Positions 5,497-33,483 of a stretch of 33,614 bases of DNA are shown one piece after another (position 1 is the first letter of the stretch; each line of letters starts with the position of its first letter). The position numbers were made by a program, and so were the translations under genes. The notes under the pieces are model-generated. The model saw nothing but the letters and a program-made list of their open reading frames with translations. It was not told the origin of the DNA and made no database searches. Source of the stretch: Candidatus Zhuqueibacterota bacterium (GTDB lineage: Bacteria > Zhuqueibacterota > Zhuqueibacteria > Residuimicrobiales > Krinioviventaceae); NCBI GenBank assembly GCA_016929295.1, contig JAFGJB010000144.1:1-33614 (forward strand), in the 5' to 3' direction.

Positions 5497-7980
5497 ATGA
5501 GCTGCAGCAGGGTTGTCGTGCTGTCATTCTTCCTGGCGTTCAATTCATTTTCGCAAATTGTCTTGTCCGAAATCATGTTCAATCCGCAGGGCAATGAGCG
5601 TCATGATGAATTCATAGAGCTGTGTAATGTGAGCGAGACGGATGCCGTCGATCTCATCGGCTGGCTGCTCAGCGACGGAACAAAATTCAACACTCTTATC
5701 CCATTCTCCGCAACTTCCGTCCTTCTGCCGAAACAGTATGCCATCATACTGGTGCCGCTCTATTTTCAGGCGAGCGCCAGCTATGATGCAGTGATCCCGC
5801 AAGGGGCATTGATCCTGACGATTGCCGAATCGCAGTTTGGCGCGAATGGTTTGAAAAATTCCGGTGAAATCGTTTCAATTTACACGCCGGACACCACGCT
5901 GGTCGGTGCGTATCAATACACACCCGACAACAAAGATGGCTTTTCCGAAGAAAAAATCGACCTTGAGGGCGGCGATTCGGATATGAACTGGAGCAACTCG
6001 GCGCGACTCGGTGGCACGCCCGGTTATGCGAACTCGATCAAGCGACGATCCTACGATCTTGCCCTCACGACCACGCAGATCGCATGCGAAAACATCTCGT
6101 CCGCTGATTCTGTTCGTCTTTTTCTCGGCATCAAGAATGTCGGCAAGCTTGCTGCGGACTGTTGCACCTTGGTTTTGCACGATAGCACCCAGGATCGCAT
6201 CACATTGATGACAGAAAAGATGATCGCGCTCAATTCCCTCGCTGCCGGCGATTCACTGGCGCTCGCCCTGACGCTCGCTCCTTTGACAGCCGGATTTCAT
6301 TCCATTAATGTCCGCATCGATTTTGCTCTGGATGAAAAAATCTCCAACAACAGTGCTCGCATTCATTTTCAGGTCTGCGAAATCTATCCTCCGGCGTGTA
6401 TTGTGATCAACGAGATCATGTACGACACAGATGAAAAGTCGCAAGAATGGATTGAAATCCTCAATCACTCACACCTCGATATTGACATCGCCAACTGGCG
6501 TTTGCGAGATACGCGCAAATCCGTCATCTTGACACGCGAGAGCTGTATGCTCGAGGCCGGCAGTTACTGTATCCTGACCAATAATGAACTCGACAGCGTC
6601 GAGTGCGAACGTGTCATTGTCGTCAATCTGCCTGAGCTCAATAACACCGGTGACTCGATCGTGCTGCTGGATGCTGTCGGCGTCAGAATTGACAGCATGT
6701 CTTACGATCGGAGTTATGGCGGCGGACGCTTCATCTCGCTCGAACGAATTCGTAGTGAGAAGGAATCATGTGATCCGGATAACTGGAGTAGCTGCAGGGC
6801 TGAAAGCGGCAGTACGCCGGGTCAAGTGAACAGTGCCAGTCCAAAAGACTATGACGCGGCCATTGGCGAGATTCGCTTTCAACCGGCTCAACCGCATGAC
6901 GGGGATGATGTCCGCGTCACGGTCGATATAGTCAATGCGGGACGATATGCACTTGAACCTGCAGTGCTGACGTTGTCCTTCGAATCGATTGGCGATCGAG
7001 TTCGCACGCCAATCGGCGACTTTATAATCGCAGATACGGATGACATCAATGTCTATTCAGCCGAGCTCGTCTGGTCTCATATACCAGCGGGGATTCATAT
7101 CGTCACCGGTGAAATCAAGATGCATCAGGACATGTTGAGTGATAACAACATACGATCAGATACCATTACAGTGAGTTATTTGACCGGCAGCATGGTGATA
7201 AATGAGATCATGTACAGTCCCATTGTCGGAGAATGCGAATGGGTTGAGCTTTACAATCGCTGTGATCTATGCGTCGAATTGATGAATTGGTCGATTTCTG
7301 ACAGCGATTCACTGAAACGTATTCCATTCATCGACGCACCTTTCCTCATACCGCCGCAGCATTACATTGTCATCGGTCAAGATTCATCGATTCTGGAAAA
7401 GAGTCATTCCGCCATTGTCTGCGCAAAATTTCCGTCACTGGGGAATGAAGAGGACGATGTGATCCTTTATGACGGTTGCGGTCGAATCATCGATGGCGTC
7501 TCCTACACGTCGGCATTTGGCGGTGAACGTGGTCGTTCGCTGGAACGCATCAATCCTCATACCGACTCAGAGGAACGGACAAACTGGACGACTTGTGTGC
7601 ACAGCGAGGGCCATACGGCGGGACATTCGAACAGTATTGCCATCACCGTTATGCCGAAAATGACGTCCCTGTTCGTTTCACCCAATCCATTTTCTCCTGA
7701 CGGTGACGGCGTAGAAGACTTTGCCGGCATATTCTATTCCCTACCGGCGATCCTGGCGCGGGTCAATCTCAAGATCTTTGATATGAATGGTCGTCTTGTT
7801 CGTTTTTTGCTGAACAACAGTCCAAGTGGCGCAGAGCGAACAGTCTATTGGGATGGTCTCGATGAAAGCGGGGTGCGATGTCGCATGGGGATTTACATCA
7901 TTCTCTTGCAGGCGCTCAACGAATCGCAGATGCGCATAGAATGCGCAAAAAAGACCGTTGTATTGGCCGGGCGACTTTAA
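5497..7980 (+). CDS. Secreted protein with three lamin-tail domains and a C-terminal FlgD-like domain
   Basis: The product has 827 residues. The first 20 form a signal peptide with a hydrophobic core VVVLSFFLAF. Three lamin-tail domains start near residues 21, 302 and 569, each opening with VL/VINEIMY or SEIMF and containing an E(F/W)(I/V)E(L/I) strand (DEFIELCN, QEWIEILN, CEWVELYN) and a W.L.D turn. Two CARDB-like beta-sandwich spacers lie between them (about 187-290 and 450-560). The C-terminal 100 residues start with SPNPFSPDGDGVEDFAGI and hold a KIFDMNGRLVRFL segment, an Ig-like FlgD-type domain common at the end of FCB-group surface proteins. It lacks the LLVK ending of the other secreted proteins here. 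The ATG at 5497 follows a G-rich GGGGATGGGG that can serve as a ribosome-binding site. The role is probably adhesive or structural at the cell surface; no enzyme domain is visible. Confidence 0.85.
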   Translation: MSCSRVVVLSFFLAFNSFSQIVLSEIMFNPQGNERHDEFIELCNVSETDAVDLIGWLLSDGTKFNTLIPFSATSVLLPKQYAIILVPLYFQASASYDAVIPQGALILTIAESQFGANGLKNSGEIVSIYTPDTTLVGAYQYTPDNKDGFSEEKIDLEGGDSDMNWSNSARLGGTPGYANSIKRRSYDLALTTTQIACENISSADSVRLFLGIKNVGKLAADCCTLVLHDSTQDRITLMTEKMIALNSLAAGDSLALALTLAPLTAGFHSINVRIDFALDEKISNNSARIHFQVCEIYPPACIVINEIMYDTDEKSQEWIEILNHSHLDIDIANWRLRDTRKSVILTRESCMLEAGSYCILTNNELDSVECERVIVVNLPELNNTGDSIVLLDAVGVRIDSMSYDRSYGGGRFISLERIRSEKESCDPDNWSSCRAESGSTPGQVNSASPKDYDAAIGEIRFQPAQPHDGDDVRVTVDIVNAGRYALEPAVLTLSFESIGDRVRTPIGDFIIADTDDINVYSAELVWSHIPAGIHIVTGEIKMHQDMLSDNNIRSDTITVSYLTGSMVINEIMYSPIVGECEWVELYNRCDLCVELMNWSISDSDSLKRIPFIDAPFLIPPQHYIVIGQDSSILEKSHSAIVCAKFPSLGNEEDDVILYDGCGRIIDGVSYTSAFGGERGRSLERINPHTDSEERTNWTTCVHSEGHTAGHSNSIAITVMPKMTSLFVSPNPFSPDGDGVEDFAGIFYSLPAILARVNLKIFDMNGRLVRFLLNNSPSGAERTVYWDGLDESGVRCRMGIYIILLQALNESQMRIECAKKTVVLAGRL

Positions 7981-7986
7981 ACCGGT

Positions 7987-8838
7987 CTAGTCAATTTTTT
8001 CGGCCGCTTCAATGATCTTGTTGATGAACCCGGCCAAAGAGTCGGGTTTAAAAGCGATTTGTGATATACGCAGCGCCAAGCTATCAATATCGACATGAAG
8101 ATTCTCGACGATTTCCGCTCGAATGGAGTCCGGGATCATCGGCGCAAAATATATCAATCCCTGTTGCACAACTTGCGGCGCGAGGGAAAAATTCTCAAAT
8201 TTTACCAGGTCATCATCCGACATCTCCTCCAGTCGGCGACGTAAATCGGGATGATTTGTAAAGATGTACTGTTTGGCGAGGCTGGAATCAACCAGCAGGC
8301 GCAAGCCGTCATCCGCCACAAACATGGCGCGCTGGTAAAAAGCTCGGCAGGACGAGTCCTCTTGACATATCTTTTGTATCTCGTTCCGCAAGTCAACCAT
8401 CTCGTGATAATTACGCGCGAGCCGGTCAGCTTGAATATCATATTGAATTTTTCTTTCCGGGTGACTCTTTTCGCGCAATTGTCGAACTCGACGCTCCTGA
8501 CTGGTGTCGAGCGATGCATCCAGCAATGAACGCAGCTCCTGCGGCGAAGGTTTCTCGGGCGCCATTTGCATATTCAGAGCGCGGGCAAGGGTCACTTGCA
8601 CCTGATCTTGCGATATTTCATTCTTTTCGGCTTTCAGGATAAAATCTTCGATCCGTTTCGACAGTGCATCGCGTTCCTGTCCCTCGGGCACCATCGCCAG
8701 CAATTCATCGCCAAACATCTCCAGCGTGGAGCGCAGTATGTTATTTTTGACATCCTGATCCTGTATGAGCAGAAAAAAGATGCCGGACGAGAGAGCAAGG
8801 ACAAAAATAATGATCACGAGATTTTTTATCAAATTCAA
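7987..8838 (-). CDS. Membrane-anchored protein of unknown function
   Basis: I do not recognise this 283-residue protein. It starts with TTG at 8838, supported by TGGAG at 8846-8850 seven bases upstream. Residues 6-26 form one hydrophobic segment (LVIIIFVLALSSGIFFLLI) after two lysine/asparagine residues, so it is either an uncleaved N-terminal anchor or a signal peptide. The rest is charged, probably alpha-helical and outside the membrane. It has a heptad-like basic stretch (QERRVRQLREKSHPERK) and two cysteines six residues apart (ICQEDSSC). It lies 71 bp downstream of the lipid kinase gene on the same strand, so co-transcription is likely. Its stop is 6 bp from the stop of the convergent lamin-tail gene. 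Confidence 0.65.
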   Translation of the reverse strand: MNLIKNLVIIIFVLALSSGIFFLLIQDQDVKNNILRSTLEMFGDELLAMVPEGQERDALSKRIEDFILKAEKNEISQDQVQVTLARALNMQMAPEKPSPQELRSLLDASLDTSQERRVRQLREKSHPERKIQYDIQADRLARNYHEMVDLRNEIQKICQEDSSCRAFYQRAMFVADDGLRLLVDSSLAKQYIFTNHPDLRRRLEEMSDDDLVKFENFSLAPQVVQQGLIYFAPMIPDSIRAEIVENLHVDIDSLALRISQIAFKPDSLAGFINKIIEAAEKID

Positions 8839-17374: not shown

Positions 17375-18772
17375 TCATTTCACCAGCAGCATCTTGAGCG
17401 AGCTTTGGTAGCTGTTATCCCCTGAAGAAACGGTCAGGGATGCCACGTAGATGCCCGTCGGCGCCGGTCGTCCATCTGACATCCGACCACTCCAGACAAC
17501 TTTATGCGAGCCGGCTGACTGTACGGTGTTCACCAGCCCGTAAATTCGTTCACCCTGCATATTCACAATTGATAATTCGACGTGGGCGCGACAAGGCAGC
17601 TCGTACGAAATTGTGGTGCTCGGATTGAATGGATTTGGATAATTTTTCATCAACCCGTATGTTTGCGGCTTGTGCAACTGCGCCCGGTCATCGACCGCCG
17701 TCGTGCCGGTGAAATGCGATACGCCGTTATTCGTAGCAATCCACAGAGAGCCATCCACATCCACAGCGAGATCAAAAATATTGTTGCCGGCCAAACCATC
17801 CGCAACCGTATAGTTTGTAAAGGCATCCACTTCAATACCCCATTCGCCCGGTTTGTATTTGAATTTTGACAAACCATTGCTCGTTCCAATCCACATCACC
17901 ATCTCATCCCCTCGCACGATGGCCTGAACCAGATTGCTAACGAGTCCCTCCTCAACAGTGAAAAACTCCCAACCGGCTTTTGTCTCGGTCGTATCGTGAT
18001 AGCCAAAGCCGGCATCCGTACCAAACCACTGAGATCCATCATCGTCCATGAAAACGGCATAGACATTATGGGACCACAAGCCACTCCATTCGGAACTATA
18101 AGGGGATGGCGCGGTGATGGCATCGACATCCGTCAGACTGGTGCGCAAGCGCGCCACACCGTTGTTTTCACCGCTGCCTTGCGTGAGGCCGTTCTTGGTG
18201 CCAAAATATTTCCAACCGCTATCGGCATCCACGCCGATACAGGTGACATCCGTCCATGCCAGAATGGGATTCGTCGTCAGATCAAATGATCGCCAGCCCG
18301 TGGAGCTGAACCGGGAAGCACCTTTGGGCGTGCCAAACCACTGTTCGTGCCTGAGCGGATCAACTGCCACCGATGTCACGAAATTGTCAATGATGCCCGT
18401 GTTGTCGGTGCGATACGGCGTCGCTTTGGTCACGGCATCGATGGAGGGTATGGCAATGACGGATGCGCCATTGGCAGTGGCGATCCAGATTTCCGGCCCA
18501 TATGAAGTGACCTCGAACACCATGTCATTTATATTGTTATCGGCCAGCGTCTGCTTGTTGTCATCCTTCACATAGGTGACCCATTTGGCGCCGTCAAACG
18601 CGGAAAGACCTTGATCTGTGCCGAACCACTTGTTGCCATTGCCATCGATGACAATGGCTTTGACCAAATCGCTCGCCAGACCGCTATTAGCGGTGTTGTA
18701 GGATGTCCAATCGCCTGCAGTAAGAATGGACGAAAAGACTGTCATGAACAGCATGATAGCGATGGTTTTCAT
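17375..18772 (-). CDS. Secreted beta-propeller protein with type A (Por/T9SS) sorting domain
   Basis: The ATG at 18772 gives 465 residues starting with a signal peptide (IAIMLFMTVFSSILTAGD); the open frame continues 37 codons further upstream, but that part reads as non-coding. Seven W(F/I)GT.(N/D/Q)G(L/A/V) repeats (WFGTDQGLSAF, WIATANGASVI, WFGTPKGASRF, YFGTKNGLTQ, WFGTDAGFGY, WIGTSNGLSKF, WIATNNGVSHF) form one propeller of the two-component-regulator-propeller type. The last 90 residues, starting NYPNPFNPSTTISYELP and ending LKMLLVK, are a type A sorting domain, which directs export by the type IX system and cleavage or anchoring at the surface. No histidine kinase domain is attached, so it is likely a surface or secreted binding protein rather than a sensor kinase. 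Confidence 0.88.
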   Translation of the reverse strand: MKTIAIMLFMTVFSSILTAGDWTSYNTANSGLASDLVKAIVIDGNGNKWFGTDQGLSAFDGAKWVTYVKDDNKQTLADNNINDMVFEVTSYGPEIWIATANGASVIAIPSIDAVTKATPYRTDNTGIIDNFVTSVAVDPLRHEQWFGTPKGASRFSSTGWRSFDLTTNPILAWTDVTCIGVDADSGWKYFGTKNGLTQGSGENNGVARLRTSLTDVDAITAPSPYSSEWSGLWSHNVYAVFMDDDGSQWFGTDAGFGYHDTTETKAGWEFFTVEEGLVSNLVQAIVRGDEMVMWIGTSNGLSKFKYKPGEWGIEVDAFTNYTVADGLAGNNIFDLAVDVDGSLWIATNNGVSHFTGTTAVDDRAQLHKPQTYGLMKNYPNPFNPSTTISYELPCRAHVELSIVNMQGERIYGLVNTVQSAGSHKVVWSGRMSDGRPAPTGIYVASLTVSSGDNSYQSSLKMLLVK

Positions 18773-18981
18773 AAAGACATTTAACTCCCGGTTTGGTTGT
18801 AGAGTTTTGCAGATCGAGCAATCCTTCGAAGCACGTTTTCGACTGCCCTCTTGGACAGTGAAGAGATAAAAAACGCAAAACAATCTGATTTATCAAGTAA
18901 AAAAATGTAAAGTGTTGAGAAAAATTTAGGGTTCGATAACGAATCGAGCGGGGCACACTATCCTATTCATCGCGGCAAAAA

Positions 18982-26536: not shown

Positions 26537-29500
26537 CTATTTCACCAGCAGCAGTCGTTGCACCGCCCCAAAGTCTCCGGCGTCCATTTTGCAGAAATAT
26601 AAACCGGCGGCGACGAGTTGATCCGCATCATTTCGTCCGTCCCAGCAGATCTCAAATGAACCGGCGTCGCGATTCTCATCCAACAACATCCTCACCAGTC
26701 GTCCCCGAACATCGTAAAGTCGAATCATCACACGTTCCGTCTTTGCCACGTCGTAGCGTATGATGGTGAATGGATTGAACGGATTCGGATAGTTGACATG
26801 CAGGGCAAAATCCGGCCGTAAATCTGCAGACACTTGTCCAAAGACTGTCACCGGCACCGGCCCATAGGATCTGATTTGGCCGTCAAGCGTCACGGATTCC
26901 AATTTATAAAAATGACTTGCTAATCCGGCGACATCGATATAACTATAGTCCGCGCCGCGACCAGAATCGCCCTGACTGGCAATGAGTTGGTCATTGATTC
27001 TGCTGAACGGTCCATCGCGGCCATCGCCCCTCAGGATATTATAGCCCGCGACGTTAATCTCGCTGTCGGTACGCCACAAGAGCGTGACACTGTTCCTTTC
27101 AAAACGGGCCTGCAAAAAGGACAACTTGATGACAATGGGCGCCAGTTGCAGGCCGACGATCACCGGATCGTGATCGGAGGATCGATAGGGTCCGGGATCA
27201 TAAAGGGCTGCAGCATTGCTGCTGTGATAGTCCAATGCTGCCGGCTCATCCGCATTGATGTGCCAGAGAGCCGTGCCGGCTATTTGCGAGTATAAAGACG
27301 GGGATACGAAAGCATGATCCAGCGCCCCTGCTTGTCCCTCGTAGACGTAACTGTAAACATTCGCCTCGGCCGTTTCAACGAGATTGACGTATCCCGCTTC
27401 TTTCAATACCGTAAGCGGATCTTCATGGCAATAAGCATTGAAATCACCCATGATGAGAATATCATCATCATTGGCGCCGGTTGGATTTGCCGCCAACCAC
27501 TCTTTCAAGGCAATAGCCGCATTGACGCGCGTCTGGTTGCAGTGTCCCTGTCCGTCTCCGGCATCTTCATCGCCGGGACACGGAGTGCTCTTGGAACGGA
27601 AATGGTTGATGACAAAAATGACCAGCTGCTCATTTTTATCCTGAAACATCTGCGCCAGTGACGGTCGATTGGAGGCATCAAACATGGGATCAACAGTATG
27701 ATCAAGAATCGCCAAATCGCCAACAGGTGTTAAAAATTCCGGCTTGTAGATGATGCCGCAGGTGATCTCGTCATCACCGATATGATCAAGACCGGGATCA
27801 ATGAAACTATATGCACCGGGCGTTGCCTCGTTCAATCCGCTCACCAGATCTTGCATGGCACTCTTCGCAGTAAATCCATCATTCTCCAATTCAGCAACGC
27901 CTAACAGGGCGGCATCGATTGCTGTCAGGGCGCTGATCAGCTTTTCGCGTTGTCGCACATAGTCGTCGAAAGTAGCTGCACCGCGACTCGTTGGGAAGCC
28001 ACCTCCTTGTCCGTCACCATTAAAAAAGTTGCCGAGATTGAAAGATGCGGCCTTGACGACACTATTGACCGATGCCGGCGCTCTTCGGGGATTCTCATCC
28101 ACAAGGCTGATATCCTCGGTTGGATGAATCTCGTATCGCGCAAAACTATAATCCAGCACACCCGTGAGAGATGACAGCTTTGCACCCAGGCGCAGCGTGT
28201 TTGCGAAAAAGTAGGGAATGGGTTCGGGATTTTCAGCACGACTACCGTCATCCAGTTGAATGCGTCGATGGTCATTTGCGAGCTGCAAATTGATGGCGTC
28301 CGCCCCTGGCGCAACACTATTTGTGGGTGCGAACAGACGTCCGTTGACAGCAAGTTCGAGCTCACCGTATTTCGCCAGGCCTTGTGTGCTGGTCACGGTC
28401 AGCTCCGAGCCGATTCGGATCAGCATGCCCTCGCAAGCTTCAAGCTCGTCGAGGGATGCAACCGGCAGGAGAAGGGGTTGCGGTTCAGGTACGGCGATAT
28501 GGCGGACGATGACCGCTTGAGTGAGTTCGGTTATTTCGGTGCGATCATAATAGTCGCGCACCTTCCCGGTCAGCCGAACCACATCTCCCACAGTGAAATC
28601 GACGCCAAAACCGCTATCATAGACAAAAATCCCTTCGGATGTCGATGCATGCGCGTCGAATTGCGCGCTCTCTTCCTGCATGAAGAAACCGTTCAGCTCC
28701 TCCCCCGCCTGGAAGTCGCCGGTGACAACGCCTTCGATCATGACGCCGGAGCGGCCGTCATATGGACTGGCGGCGGTGTTTCCCTGAATCGCGTGTATCA
28801 ATGTCGCCGACAAACTGTAACCGCCTGTGAATCGGCCGGGAGAGTAGAGCGCGCCGTCGGCATCCGGCGCCAGAGAATGCTTGATAAATGTTTCGCCGAT
28901 CACATCAGGTGATCGTGTGATCGATTGATTATCCCCGGCGGCTCCATCAAAAGTCACTGAAACGATATCGGATGAGCCATCATTCATGGTCACTGTGTCG
29001 CCGGAGTTATTCAAACCGAGGGATCCACTGCTCGCGGTTTGCACCAGAGCGCCGCCGAAATCGCCGCTCGGAGATCCGCCGCCAAACAGCACCAGCGCCC
29101 CACCCTTATGAAGAATCGTCCCATCAGCGAAAACATGGCGCACGCTGCTCGCATCCGCCAAAGACCAGCCCGACAAATCGACATCCCCATTCGAGCTATT
29201 GACAATTTCAACAAATTCATCATCAGCCGTGTCCACCACTCCGTCGCCATTGGCATCTCCCTGCTGGGCATCCGGATCGGCGAGAATTTCATTGATGACC
29301 AGCGCTGCATCCACATGCTGGCGAATATCAGCATCGCCACGAGGTTCAATGACAACATGGTCCTCATTCCAGTCAACGAGGCCAATGAGTCTGGTGAGTT
29401 GATCATCAACGACAGGGACGTAGGAAAAGGAGCCTTTCTTTCCGATCCGAACCTCGCCGGAGCCATCATTGACCGACCATTCGCCGTCGCCGAGATCAAT

Positions 29501-30445
29501 GCCGGACACCGTCACATTCTCGAGGCAGACCAGCACACTTTCCCACTGTTCGGCAGCGACCTCGCCGGTCGTAGCTACTGCCGGATCCGGCAGTTTATTC
29601 GCACTTGATGATATCTGAAATTGAGTTACATCGTCCAGTTCTGTCCGGCTGTCCTTTTCACGAACGGTGCCGGTCAATTTGACGCGATCCGCCGTCGCCG
29701 GATTGTTAACGTCATCGGCGATCCACAGGCCGCGCCACGGACCGCCGACCGCTTCGGCGATGAAATAACCGCCACTGAAGAGAGCTGTCACAACGCCTTC
29801 GGTCACAATATCCGCTTGATCTTTGAGAGGCGAATCACCGTCAGGAGCAGCGGTGTATTGAATATCATAAATAGGTGTGGCGCTCGCGCCGCAATCGGCG
29901 CTGTGAGCGCCGATCCCGTCGAACGTGTCCACTGCATAGCCAGACCATTCGGTCTCAAGCTGGAACACCGCATTGCCGGAGCAGACAGCGGGCAATCGAC
30001 GCAGGGTATTATCAGCCGTACTGAGCAGGTCGCTGCCCCATTCTGTCCCGGGATCTTGGCCGATGACGCCAATGATGTCAATGAGCACCTCGCCATGTCG
30101 GAGGGCGATGGCGTCATCACCATTATAGCCAAGGACCGAGCCGTTTGTCATATCAGCGACAGCGATGAGGAGTGAATCCGCGGATGAATGGGCGATGACA
30201 TAGACATCTGCATGGTCGAGAATGCCGGTGAGACCAACGGATGAAGAAACTTCGGCAGCGCCGTTGGTATAGCGCTCCAGGGTGTAGGCGGACAGATCGA
30301 TGGGCGATCCCGTACCATTGTACAACTCGATAGCTTTGTTAAAGCCGCTCCCTTCGACATATTCGGAGATGAACAGATCAGTTGGTTCACCCGTCACACG
30401 GGTGGCGATACAGAATAATGCAACAAACAAAGAGCGAATTTTCAT
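26537..30445 (-). CDS. Secreted multidomain nuclease (lamin-tail, OB-fold, endonuclease/exonuclease/phosphatase) with type A sorting domain
   Basis: The 1302-residue product resembles ExeM/NucH-type extracellular nucleases. In order: a signal peptide (about 1-19); a lamin-tail domain (DLFISEYVEGSGFNKAIELYN, about 22-180); an OB-fold (about 185-375); a second lamin-tail domain with the acidic loop DANGDGVVDTADDEFVEIVN (about 380-500); a second OB-fold (about 540-680); then an endonuclease/exonuclease/phosphatase domain (about 797-1105) with FNLGNFF, VAELEND, NHFRSK, MGDFNAY, LDHAFVS and SSDHDPV (metal and catalytic residues). A fibronectin-like stretch and a sorting domain (NYPNPFNPFTIIRYD to RLLLVK, about 1215-1302) end it. 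It probably degrades extracellular DNA or nucleotides outside the cell. GGAGG lies before the ATG at 30445. It is the largest gene in the window. Confidence 0.92.
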   Translation of the reverse strand: MKIRSLFVALFCIATRVTGEPTDLFISEYVEGSGFNKAIELYNGTGSPIDLSAYTLERYTNGAAEVSSSVGLTGILDHADVYVIAHSSADSLLIAVADMTNGSVLGYNGDDAIALRHGEVLIDIIGVIGQDPGTEWGSDLLSTADNTLRRLPAVCSGNAVFQLETEWSGYAVDTFDGIGAHSADCGASATPIYDIQYTAAPDGDSPLKDQADIVTEGVVTALFSGGYFIAEAVGGPWRGLWIADDVNNPATADRVKLTGTVREKDSRTELDDVTQFQISSSANKLPDPAVATTGEVAAEQWESVLVCLENVTVSGIDLGDGEWSVNDGSGEVRIGKKGSFSYVPVVDDQLTRLIGLVDWNEDHVVIEPRGDADIRQHVDAALVINEILADPDAQQGDANGDGVVDTADDEFVEIVNSSNGDVDLSGWSLADASSVRHVFADGTILHKGGALVLFGGGSPSGDFGGALVQTASSGSLGLNNSGDTVTMNDGSSDIVSVTFDGAAGDNQSITRSPDVIGETFIKHSLAPDADGALYSPGRFTGGYSLSATLIHAIQGNTAASPYDGRSGVMIEGVVTGDFQAGEELNGFFMQEESAQFDAHASTSEGIFVYDSGFGVDFTVGDVVRLTGKVRDYYDRTEITELTQAVIVRHIAVPEPQPLLLPVASLDELEACEGMLIRIGSELTVTSTQGLAKYGELELAVNGRLFAPTNSVAPGADAINLQLANDHRRIQLDDGSRAENPEPIPYFFANTLRLGAKLSSLTGVLDYSFARYEIHPTEDISLVDENPRRAPASVNSVVKAASFNLGNFFNGDGQGGGFPTSRGAATFDDYVRQREKLISALTAIDAALLGVAELENDGFTAKSAMQDLVSGLNEATPGAYSFIDPGLDHIGDDEITCGIIYKPEFLTPVGDLAILDHTVDPMFDASNRPSLAQMFQDKNEQLVIFVINHFRSKSTPCPGDEDAGDGQGHCNQTRVNAAIALKEWLAANPTGANDDDILIMGDFNAYCHEDPLTVLKEAGYVNLVETAEANVYSYVYEGQAGALDHAFVSPSLYSQIAGTALWHINADEPAALDYHSSNAAALYDPGPYRSSDHDPVIVGLQLAPIVIKLSFLQARFERNSVTLLWRTDSEINVAGYNILRGDGRDGPFSRINDQLIASQGDSGRGADYSYIDVAGLASHFYKLESVTLDGQIRSYGPVPVTVFGQVSADLRPDFALHVNYPNPFNPFTIIRYDVAKTERVMIRLYDVRGRLVRMLLDENRDAGSFEICWDGRNDADQLVAAGLYFCKMDAGDFGAVQRLLLVK

Positions 30446-30649
30446 TTCGACCCTCCATTATAAATTAAATTGAAATATCAACAATCTTGCGATCGTTACA
30501 AAATTCGATCTCACAACTGATGGCAAAAAATCGAGCGCATCAGCACGACTCGAAATCACGAGGCGCCAGGTTCGATTAAAGAGATACGGATATTGTGTAA
30601 AAATTCTCAGCTTTAATATAGAATCATGGCTTTTTATTGTAGAACAGAG

Positions 30650-30954
30650 ATGAGCTGGTGGCAGCAACTACCTGGGAAAATGAGTCCGACGATATTCAGC
30701 TATGGCGCCCTGCAAGTGCGCTGGTATGGCTTGATGTACGTCGTCGCGTTCGCCGTTGTTTACTTTCTGGTGATGTATCGCTATCGGGTTGAAGGTATTG
30801 TGATCAATAAAAAAGCGACGCAAAACTGGTTTAGCATAGCCATCTTGGCGCCGTTCTCGGACCTTTGAGCATGGGACAGACATTGTGCGTTGCCATGGTT
30901 CTTGCCGGTGCAGCGCTCATACCGATCGCCAGGAGAGGCGCAACATCAGCGTGA
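30650..30954 (+). pseudogene. lgt: lgt (prolipoprotein diacylglyceryl transferase) with the middle deleted
   Basis: From the ATG at 30650 the frame reads WWQQLPGKMSPTIFSYGALQ then VRWYGLMYVVAFAVVYFLVM, the start of Lgt (first membrane segment and the rwYGlmY motif), continues to ATQNWFSIAIL and stops at 30866-30868. In another frame, from about 30850, VLGPLSMGQTLCVAMVLAGA, ending at 30952-30954, matches the Lgt C-terminus (lSmGQ.lS.pmil.G). The roughly 180-200 residues between, with the Lgt signature and catalytic residues, are absent. The product cannot work. Because Lgt is essential in most bacteria with lipoproteins in their outer membrane, another copy should exist, or this is an assembly error. 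The C-terminal match is the weaker half. Confidence 0.65.
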
Positions 30955-30966
30955 TCATCCCACCCA

Positions 30967-32112
30967 TCAGACTTGATCCTGTCGCGGCAGCGAGAGTGGC
31001 AACGGACACCAGCCATTCAAAGCAGAATGATTGATCAGGCCACTCATCGCCGGAGGGAGAGGACCAAAGAGGAGTCGCATAGCTGAGAGAGGATCGCAGC
31101 AAAAGTGCGCCCTTTTCCGCGTCCGAATACAAGCAGCAGAAGGACCGTCGACGCACAATTCGATCACGCCGTAGCCCTCAATGCCCAAACGGAATATGTC
31201 GTTCATCAAAGTCATCGATTGGTGCTTCACTTTCAGTATGGCATTGACCACCCGCTGCCAGTCAAATATTTGCCAATTTCCTGACGAACGCGTGCTTTGC
31301 TGCTCGCAGATGCGCGTCAATTCCTTCACAATTGGATGCGGCAGCATGGCGGTTTCAAAGGCAACCTGAGCCTGGTCCTGTTGCGCCACCCAGGCTGGTA
31401 TGACGGCTTTCTCATCTGGCGTCGCCAATTCCAAGACTGCACCCGCCGCATTGGCGATGACATATCCCGCCAGTTCGTCGCGTGCGCTCATGGCGGCGAA
31501 CAGGTCATTCTGCCAGCTGCGCGAAATTTCGGCAAAGCTCGCAACAGGACGCGTACAATGGATGGGATGTGTATCATGCCACAATTTCATCTGCGTGAAG
31601 CGCTCATCAGGTGCGCAAATTTTTTCAAAATGAATGGCGGGCATCTCTGCATAGCCATGGCTGATATTCTTCTTGTTCACGGTAAAGACAGCGGTGCTGC
31701 CGCAGACCTCGTAACCGAAATAGCCGTAGCGTTGTCGCTGGCCGCCCAGCCAGGAGAGATGATAGCCTTCCGCCCGCATGACCTGCAGACAAAACTGCAG
31801 CAGACGCCGCATGTGCCCCTGACCGCGATCATTCGGATGAGATGAGACAGCGCCGATCGCCGCCAGTTTGAGCGGCGTCGCTCCCACATGCAGCTCTACG
31901 GGATACAATCCGACGATGGCGCGGATTTTCCCGTGCCGCTTGATGGCGTAATTCATCGACATACTTTCGTCGGTCGGCTTGTAGAGTTTTGGCAGGACCC
32001 GGGGAAAATCGATCGGATAATGCTCGGAAAAGACGAGATTTAAAAAATCGATGGCGTTTTCATAATCGCCCGCTGTAAGTTGAGTGATCGGTTCCATTCC
32101 GTCCGTCATCAT
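30967..32112 (-). CDS. GNAT family N-acetyltransferase (Eis-like)
   Basis: The 381-residue product starts with a GNAT domain: IRAIVGLYPVELHVG, then AIGAVSSHPNDRGQGHMRRLLQFCL, where the R.qG.m..L pattern binds acetyl-CoA. WLGGQRQRYGYFGYEVCGSTAVFTV follows, as in Eis-type proteins. A second, degenerate GNAT-like half and a C-terminal sterol-carrier-like domain (about 290-381) complete the Eis layout. Eis-type proteins acetylate amines, including aminoglycosides in some species, but this member's substrate is unknown. The start is one of the tandem ATG codons 32112/32109, or ATG 32097; none has a strong ribosome-binding site. It follows the GH44-like gene by 42 bp on the same strand. Confidence 0.85.
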   Translation of the reverse strand: MMTDGMEPITQLTAGDYENAIDFLNLVFSEHYPIDFPRVLPKLYKPTDESMSMNYAIKRHGKIRAIVGLYPVELHVGATPLKLAAIGAVSSHPNDRGQGHMRRLLQFCLQVMRAEGYHLSWLGGQRQRYGYFGYEVCGSTAVFTVNKKNISHGYAEMPAIHFEKICAPDERFTQMKLWHDTHPIHCTRPVASFAEISRSWQNDLFAAMSARDELAGYVIANAAGAVLELATPDEKAVIPAWVAQQDQAQVAFETAMLPHPIVKELTRICEQQSTRSSGNWQIFDWQRVVNAILKVKHQSMTLMNDIFRLGIEGYGVIELCVDGPSAACIRTRKRAHFCCDPLSAMRLLFGPLPPAMSGLINHSALNGWCPLPLSLPRQDQV

Positions 32113-32154
32113 TGCGTTTTTAGCGAATGCGTTGCGAAGAGCGGTCAGGGCTAT

Positions 32155-33483
32155 CTATTTCATCAGCAAGATTTTTATGCTGGCAACGGAAAAAGGTGTG
32201 GACACTTGCACGAGATAGACTCCGCTGGCCAGATCAGCGCCGTTCAATTGCAGGGAATGGCTTCCTGCCGCTTGCCTCTCTGTCGACAGCGATCGAACGA
32301 GGCGGCCCAGCGAATCAAAAACATTCAGCCTCACAACCTCTTCGTTCGGCAGCGAGTATGAGATCATGGTGGCAGAGTTGAAGGGATTGGGATGAGCTGT
32401 CAGGCGAAAAGTTTTTGGCGCCTGATGTCCGGTCACCTGAGTGTCGACTGTCTTTCCAGTGAAAAGAATGGCTGTCACCGACAGCTTTGGCAAGGTCAAC
32501 GAGCAGGCGCTGCTGGTCACTGCGACCGCATCATCCTTCAACGCATTGTCCGAATGCGATTTGAACGTTTCACTCGATGGCAAGTCACTCAATTGCAGAA
32601 CCTTGTATGCACCATCCGCGATTTCAAAATTCGCCAGATTGAGCGTGGCCGTCTGAGGATCGGTATCGCGGTTCACCAGGATCGCGGTCAGCGAATCGCC
32701 GGCGGCATTGACCGACGCGTAGGCGTTCACGATATCCGCCGCGCGCGTGGAAGAAAATATGCGCATATCGCGCATATAATGGCTGCAGAGATGCAGCACC
32801 TCCCACATGCCGACTTTCCAGCTCCACGGCGTGAACAGTTCGACGCCCTCATCCGCGAAAACGCCCAGGGTCGAGGCATACCAGACGGCTGTGACGTTCG
32901 GATTTTCGCTCCGGATGTCCATCTCGGTGACGCCGAGACCGACGCCATGGTCTGCGCCGATATATTTTTCCAGCCATCCAAGACATCTGCGGAATATATA
33001 CTCTTTGCGCAGTGCGTCATTCCAGCCCCCGCCGATGCGCTTGACGCCGTTGGCACCCGGATAGACATAGTCCTCATCAAACCAGACGCGATGCAAATTG
33101 AGGACATCCGAGACGCTGCTTTCACCGGGATAAAAATGCAGGTCGACCACATCCAGCAGTCGCACGCCGCTGGCAGCCTGTTCTTCAGCGATGCGCAGGA
33201 TGAAATACTCCAGCCAGACATAGCGCTTGCCTTTGTAAGAAATGGCATCATTTTTCCAGTTATACCACTGCCACTCATTCGCCGGCACCGGCCCGCCCAA
33301 TTTGATATCCGGAAAGTAGGCGCGCGCCTTTTTCGCCACTTCGAAATAGATCTGCATGAAGGACTCGGCATTGGGCTGTTGCGGCATCACATCGTCGTGG
33401 GTGCCATTCCAGATCTCCGGCTCGTTATCCATGCTCCAGTAACGGAATTGTGCTTTATCTGTTGATCCGATATAACAGGTCAA
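32155..33483 (-). pseudogene. GH44-like glycoside hydrolase lacking its N-terminus, with type A sorting domain
   Basis: The 442-codon frame holds the second part of a GH44-type (beta-1,4-glucan/xyloglucan) hydrolase. WSMDNEPEIWNGTHDDV carries the acid/base glutamate (Glu21 here), VDLHFYPG follows, and VTEMD contains the probable nucleophile (Glu187). A beta-sandwich follows, then a sorting domain opening HPNPFNSATMISYSLP and ending IKILLMK. The family has about 165 residues, including a signal peptide, before the DNEP motif; here an in-frame TAA (33496-33498) precedes the first possible start (TTG 33483, no ribosome-binding site). The missing part is replaced by repeat-like DNA. Without a signal peptide the protein could not be exported, and the barrel would be incomplete. 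Decay or misassembly at the window edge are both possible. Confidence 0.7.

Follow-up and report, generated by a model that had tools for sequence, protein, structure and literature searches.

The lgt gene of the window (the whole stretch of DNA analysed, 33,614 bases, which is the entire contig C260) is reduced to two abutting, out-of-frame ends, and is very probably an ordinary pseudogene of an accessory lgt, tolerated by way of a resident Lgt, LspA, and Lnt. Lgt, the product of lgt, is the first enzyme of lipoprotein lipidation. By itself the feature is an ordinary recent pseudogene; its demonstration removes a false alarm of essential-gene loss. The source genome is a draft assembly (4.34 Mb in 367 contigs, completeness 96%), apparently derived from a metagenome, and was compared with 60 related genomes (one genome per species), the nearest of which, G001, belongs to the same genus (candidate division KSB1 MAG, RQOI01000240). 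In what follows, "lgt2" denotes the family of the broken gene, "resident Lgt" denotes the intact divergent copy on contig C332, and residue numbers (H103, R143, etc.) are those of E. coli Lgt. Coordinates of the features are provided in Table 1.

Table 1. Remnants of lgt2, the deletion junction, and the flanking genes, in positions of the window.
Feature	Position	Strand	Remarks
Left neighbour, 1302-aa secreted-type protein	26537..30445	-	Same neighbour in G001, 76% identical
N-terminal remnant of lgt2	30650..30840	+	Roughly 64-66 codons; includes the TM1 region (RWYGLMY); PF01790 31.5 bits
Shortened open frame remaining after the deletion	30650..30868	+	72 aa; without positions H103, R143, N146, R239
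Deletion junction	30831..30848		Best break after 30840; two-block alignment to the G001 locus (L052)
C-terminal remnant of lgt2	30841..30954	+	37 codons plus stop TGA; contains LSMGQ
Right neighbour, GNAT-like acetyltransferase by appearance	30967..32112	-	Same neighbour in G001 (82%) and G006 (48%)

The N-terminal frame runs from an ATG at 30650 to a TGA at 30866-30868, the open reading frame list also giving an alternative start (ATG 8 codons upstream of 30650). Its lgt2 portion covers profile positions 1-48 of 240 of the Pfam LGT family (PF01790, cut-off 24.9 bits), matches TIGR00544 with an E-value of 2.4e-8, and shares 69% identity across 65 aa with residues 1-65 of the intact Lgt of G001. 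The C-terminal remnant lies in a different frame, in which 30841-30954 reads HLGAVLGPLSMGQ...ATSA* (sequence before the stop: HLGAVLGPLSMGQTLCVAMVLAGAALIPIARRGATSA). Taken singly, its match to PF01790 is weak (E = 0.049, profile 217-238 of 240), which is to be expected of a 37-residue tail, and the profile alone was rejected as proof of what the fragment is. Alignment of this fragment to Lgt profiles, as proposed in the earlier note, therefore gave little, and its identity was settled instead by comparison with the G001 gene: across 35 aa it shares 80% identity with residues 239-273 of the encoded Lgt; at the DNA level it falls within a 357-bp alignment (75% identity, E = 1e-65) that extends into the next gene. 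Neither remnant carries a further stop or frame change. Compared with canonical bacterial Lgt (PF01790/TIGR00544; E. coli Lgt, PDB 5azb and 5azc), the two ends match residues 1-65 and 239-273 of the G001 copy, while the window copy is frame-shifted and lacks about 174 codons. When assessed as a working Lgt (full-length frame, GRxGNFxNxE signature, essential residues), the window copy fails, given that residues ~66-238 are absent and the ends lie in different frames; assessed as an Lgt pseudogene, it shows homology to a single Lgt gene at each end and is sited where the copy of a relative is intact.

That intact copy, a 274-aa Lgt, occupies the same site in G001, where the surrounding genes agree with those of the window in kind and order (mannose-6-phosphate-isomerase-like, small AbrB-like, 1302-aa secreted-type, lgt, GNAT-like, and glycosidase-like, all names except lgt being assigned by appearance). 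It scores 239 bits against TIGR00544 (cut-off 118.9 bits) and retains Y26, H103, R143, N146, E151, G154, R239, and E243. In a two-block alignment with G001, 523 bases are missing from the window (1 modulo 3, a frame shift of 1), and 0 bases separate the remnants at the best break, with the other breaks across the junction interval nearly equal in fit; DNA identity in the N-terminal block is 76%. The earlier description of two lgt ends, out of frame and 0-20 bases apart, is thus borne out, and a real deletion, with the gene unbroken at this locus in G001, is the best reading.

The bases at the break are ATCTTGG, and those at the two ends of the deleted stretch in G001 are ATTCTGG and ATCTCGG (common word ATYYYGG). 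Because the break word resembles both deletion ends, the deletion is likely to have occurred between short words of similar sequence, as judged against a relative with 76-81% identity in the two blocks that meet there. Slippage during replication, or end joining, between such words would probably account for the loss of ~523 bases, an event that would have taken out the catalytic middle of lgt2 and left the two ends out of frame. Pseudogenes arising from short-repeat deletion likewise display a frame-shifting internal deletion, a short shared word, and no other lesions, and the window copy shows no notable difference from them. The missing stretch covers positions His103, Arg143, Asn146, and Arg239, and therefore no frameshifting event could restore a working enzyme.

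It is improbable that the broken gene is an assembly artefact or a minority strain allele, such that the population has an intact lgt2 and the contig is a collapsed or rare form; of these, an assembly fault is less likely than the allele of one strain. In favour is that the genome is a draft of 367 contigs, apparently metagenomic. Against it, the two sides of the break share a word of fewer than about 12 bases, well below the k-mer lengths that assemblers commonly use, and reads must therefore have joined both sides. Furthermore, the neighbours follow the gene order of G001, the assembly contains no stray fragment of the lost middle, and independent decay of lgt2 in G005 shows that its loss is tolerated. 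A profile search with PF01790 yielded exactly two matches in the genome, the intact one on C332 and the window remnant, and no copy of the missing middle of lgt2 elsewhere in the assembly; an lgt split by assembly with its middle located elsewhere was rejected on this basis.

Far more doubtful is the proposition that the 72-aa N-terminal frame encodes a functional short membrane protein. The frame is open, its start is kept, and pN/pS of the remnant relative to G001 is low (0.28); however, the C-terminal remnant, which is out of frame and cannot be translated with the N-terminal part, has an equally low pN/pS (0.25; 0.27 for the remnants together), and therefore both values reflect selection that preceded the deletion. 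The catalytic positions, moreover, are gone. The four intact neighbours have pN/pS values of 0.24-0.25. Given that the remnants are without other lesions and have pN/pS values like those of their neighbours, we read the loss of lgt2 as recent: most of the divergence from G001 would have arisen under selection, with the deletion coming late, although for pieces this short the values are an indication rather than a date.

The resident Lgt (contig C332, L001:1465-2289, 275 aa) gives full-length profile matches of 192.7 bits to PF01790 and 150 bits to TIGR00544 (cut-off 118.9 bits), and is orthologous to its G001 counterpart (87% identity, pN/pS 0.12). Genes for LspA and Lnt are present in the same genome, as is a BamD-like protein with the lipobox ILSC. 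We infer that the resident Lgt is active; together with LspA and Lnt it would still process lipoproteins, so that the cell would tolerate the loss of lgt2. The search for an intact lgt and lspA suggested in the earlier note thus found both, and of the two consequences drawn there from a real deletion, a second copy is present on C332, while an unusual lipoprotein pathway is not needed, LspA and Lnt being present. A pathway operating without Lgt is very unlikely and already contradicted by the intact Lgt of this genome, which also encodes LspA, Lnt, and proteins with a lipobox, and in which no sign of an unusual lipoprotein pathway and nothing in favour of an Lgt-free one was found. No publication on lipoproteins of KSB1 turned up in a literature search.

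Among members of the family, G001, G004, and G006 carry an intact lgt2; in G002, G003, and G007-G009 the lgt2 query drew no hits beyond weak ones of the kind that other Lgts would give, or no hit at all. In G005 the gene has decayed (L055, about 7162-7990): one TAG interrupts the N-terminal part and the sequence carries on in two other frames, and this is a second, independent loss. The lgt2 gene encodes an accessory canonical-type Lgt present in only part of the family. Surprise at a broken essential gene, implied when the feature was first noticed, is consequently unwarranted, the broken gene being of an accessory type that is absent from many relatives. In a tree of 70 Lgts from the compared genomes, the intact lgt2 copies (G001, G004, and G006) fall into a single clade, separate from the Lgt present in nearly every genome of the order. 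With the addition of 32 Lgts of other phyla, the three intact lgt2 copies still group together (100/98), and the clade sits among Lgts of Omnitrophota, Nitrospirota, Desulfobacterota, and Marinimicrobia, which suggests that lgt2 was acquired horizontally. An ancestor of part of the KSB1 family would have possessed both the divergent resident Lgt and a canonical-type Lgt whose relatives occur in Desulfobacterota, Nitrospirota, and Omnitrophota. No plasmid-borne relatives of lgt2 were found in a DNA search of a plasmid collection. G002 encodes a different second Lgt (L087, contig C496); its type, which has Tyr at position 103 and Cys at position 146, is the sole Lgt in other families of the class. 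Separately, G005, which keeps an intact C332-type Lgt, gave no LspA match despite 96% completeness in about 80 contigs.

Passages of PMC4728403 and PMC13251419 list Y26, H103, R143, N146, G154, and R239 as the essential residues of E. coli Lgt. According to passages of the former, none of the substitutions tested at H103 complemented; passages of the latter give H103 and N146 as absolutely required in E. coli, and name Y, W, or F for H103 and C for N146 as natural replacements. The resident Lgt keeps Y26, R143, G154, and R239, has Leu at H103 and Cys at N146, so that it lacks two of the six, and also has Cys at Glu151. C332-type Lgts in the compared genomes share this pattern: position 103 is aliphatic in 39/39 (Leu 33, Val 5, Met 1), Cys occupies Asn146 and Glu151 in all 39, and Tyr26, Arg143, Gly154, and Arg239 are kept, with one row gapped at 239. 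This type is the sole Lgt in many relatives (e.g. G003, G007, G009, G011, and G015-G020, every one of which has LspA). A functional aliphatic residue at 103 is not stated in the passages of PMC4728403 and PMC13251419 considered. N146C is known in other Lgts (PMC13251419), so the H103/N146 mismatch is not enough on its own to count the resident Lgt as inactive.

With the canonical lgt lost, this lineage shares with most of its order a sole Lgt that is aliphatic at His103 and has Cys at Asn146 and Glu151. We lean slightly towards the view that, if this protein is active, the essentiality assigned to His103 from E. coli would not be general, and a naturally His-free Lgt would serve a whole diderm lineage. 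Within one family, two lineages have lost the canonical Lgt but retain the divergent type; this amounts to a natural experiment, and both losses would point to the divergent, His103-free Lgt as sufficient. According to passages of PMC13251419, Mycobacterium smegmatis likewise has one canonical and one divergent Lgt (N146C) per genome (MSMEG_3222, MSMEG_5408); there the canonical Lgt is the major enzyme, whereas the genome of the window has lost its canonical Lgt and retains the divergent copy.

Elsewhere in the window, pS relative to G001 drops along 26537-33483, from 0.57 in the 1302-aa gene to 0.42 in the GNAT-like gene and 0.30 in the glycosidase-like gene, perhaps through recombination. 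Secreted-type proteins at 17375-18883, 26537-30445, and 32155-33483 (all on the minus strand) were seen by eye to end in PNPFN(P/S) plus a tail of ~80 residues, which we take to be typical of sorting domains.
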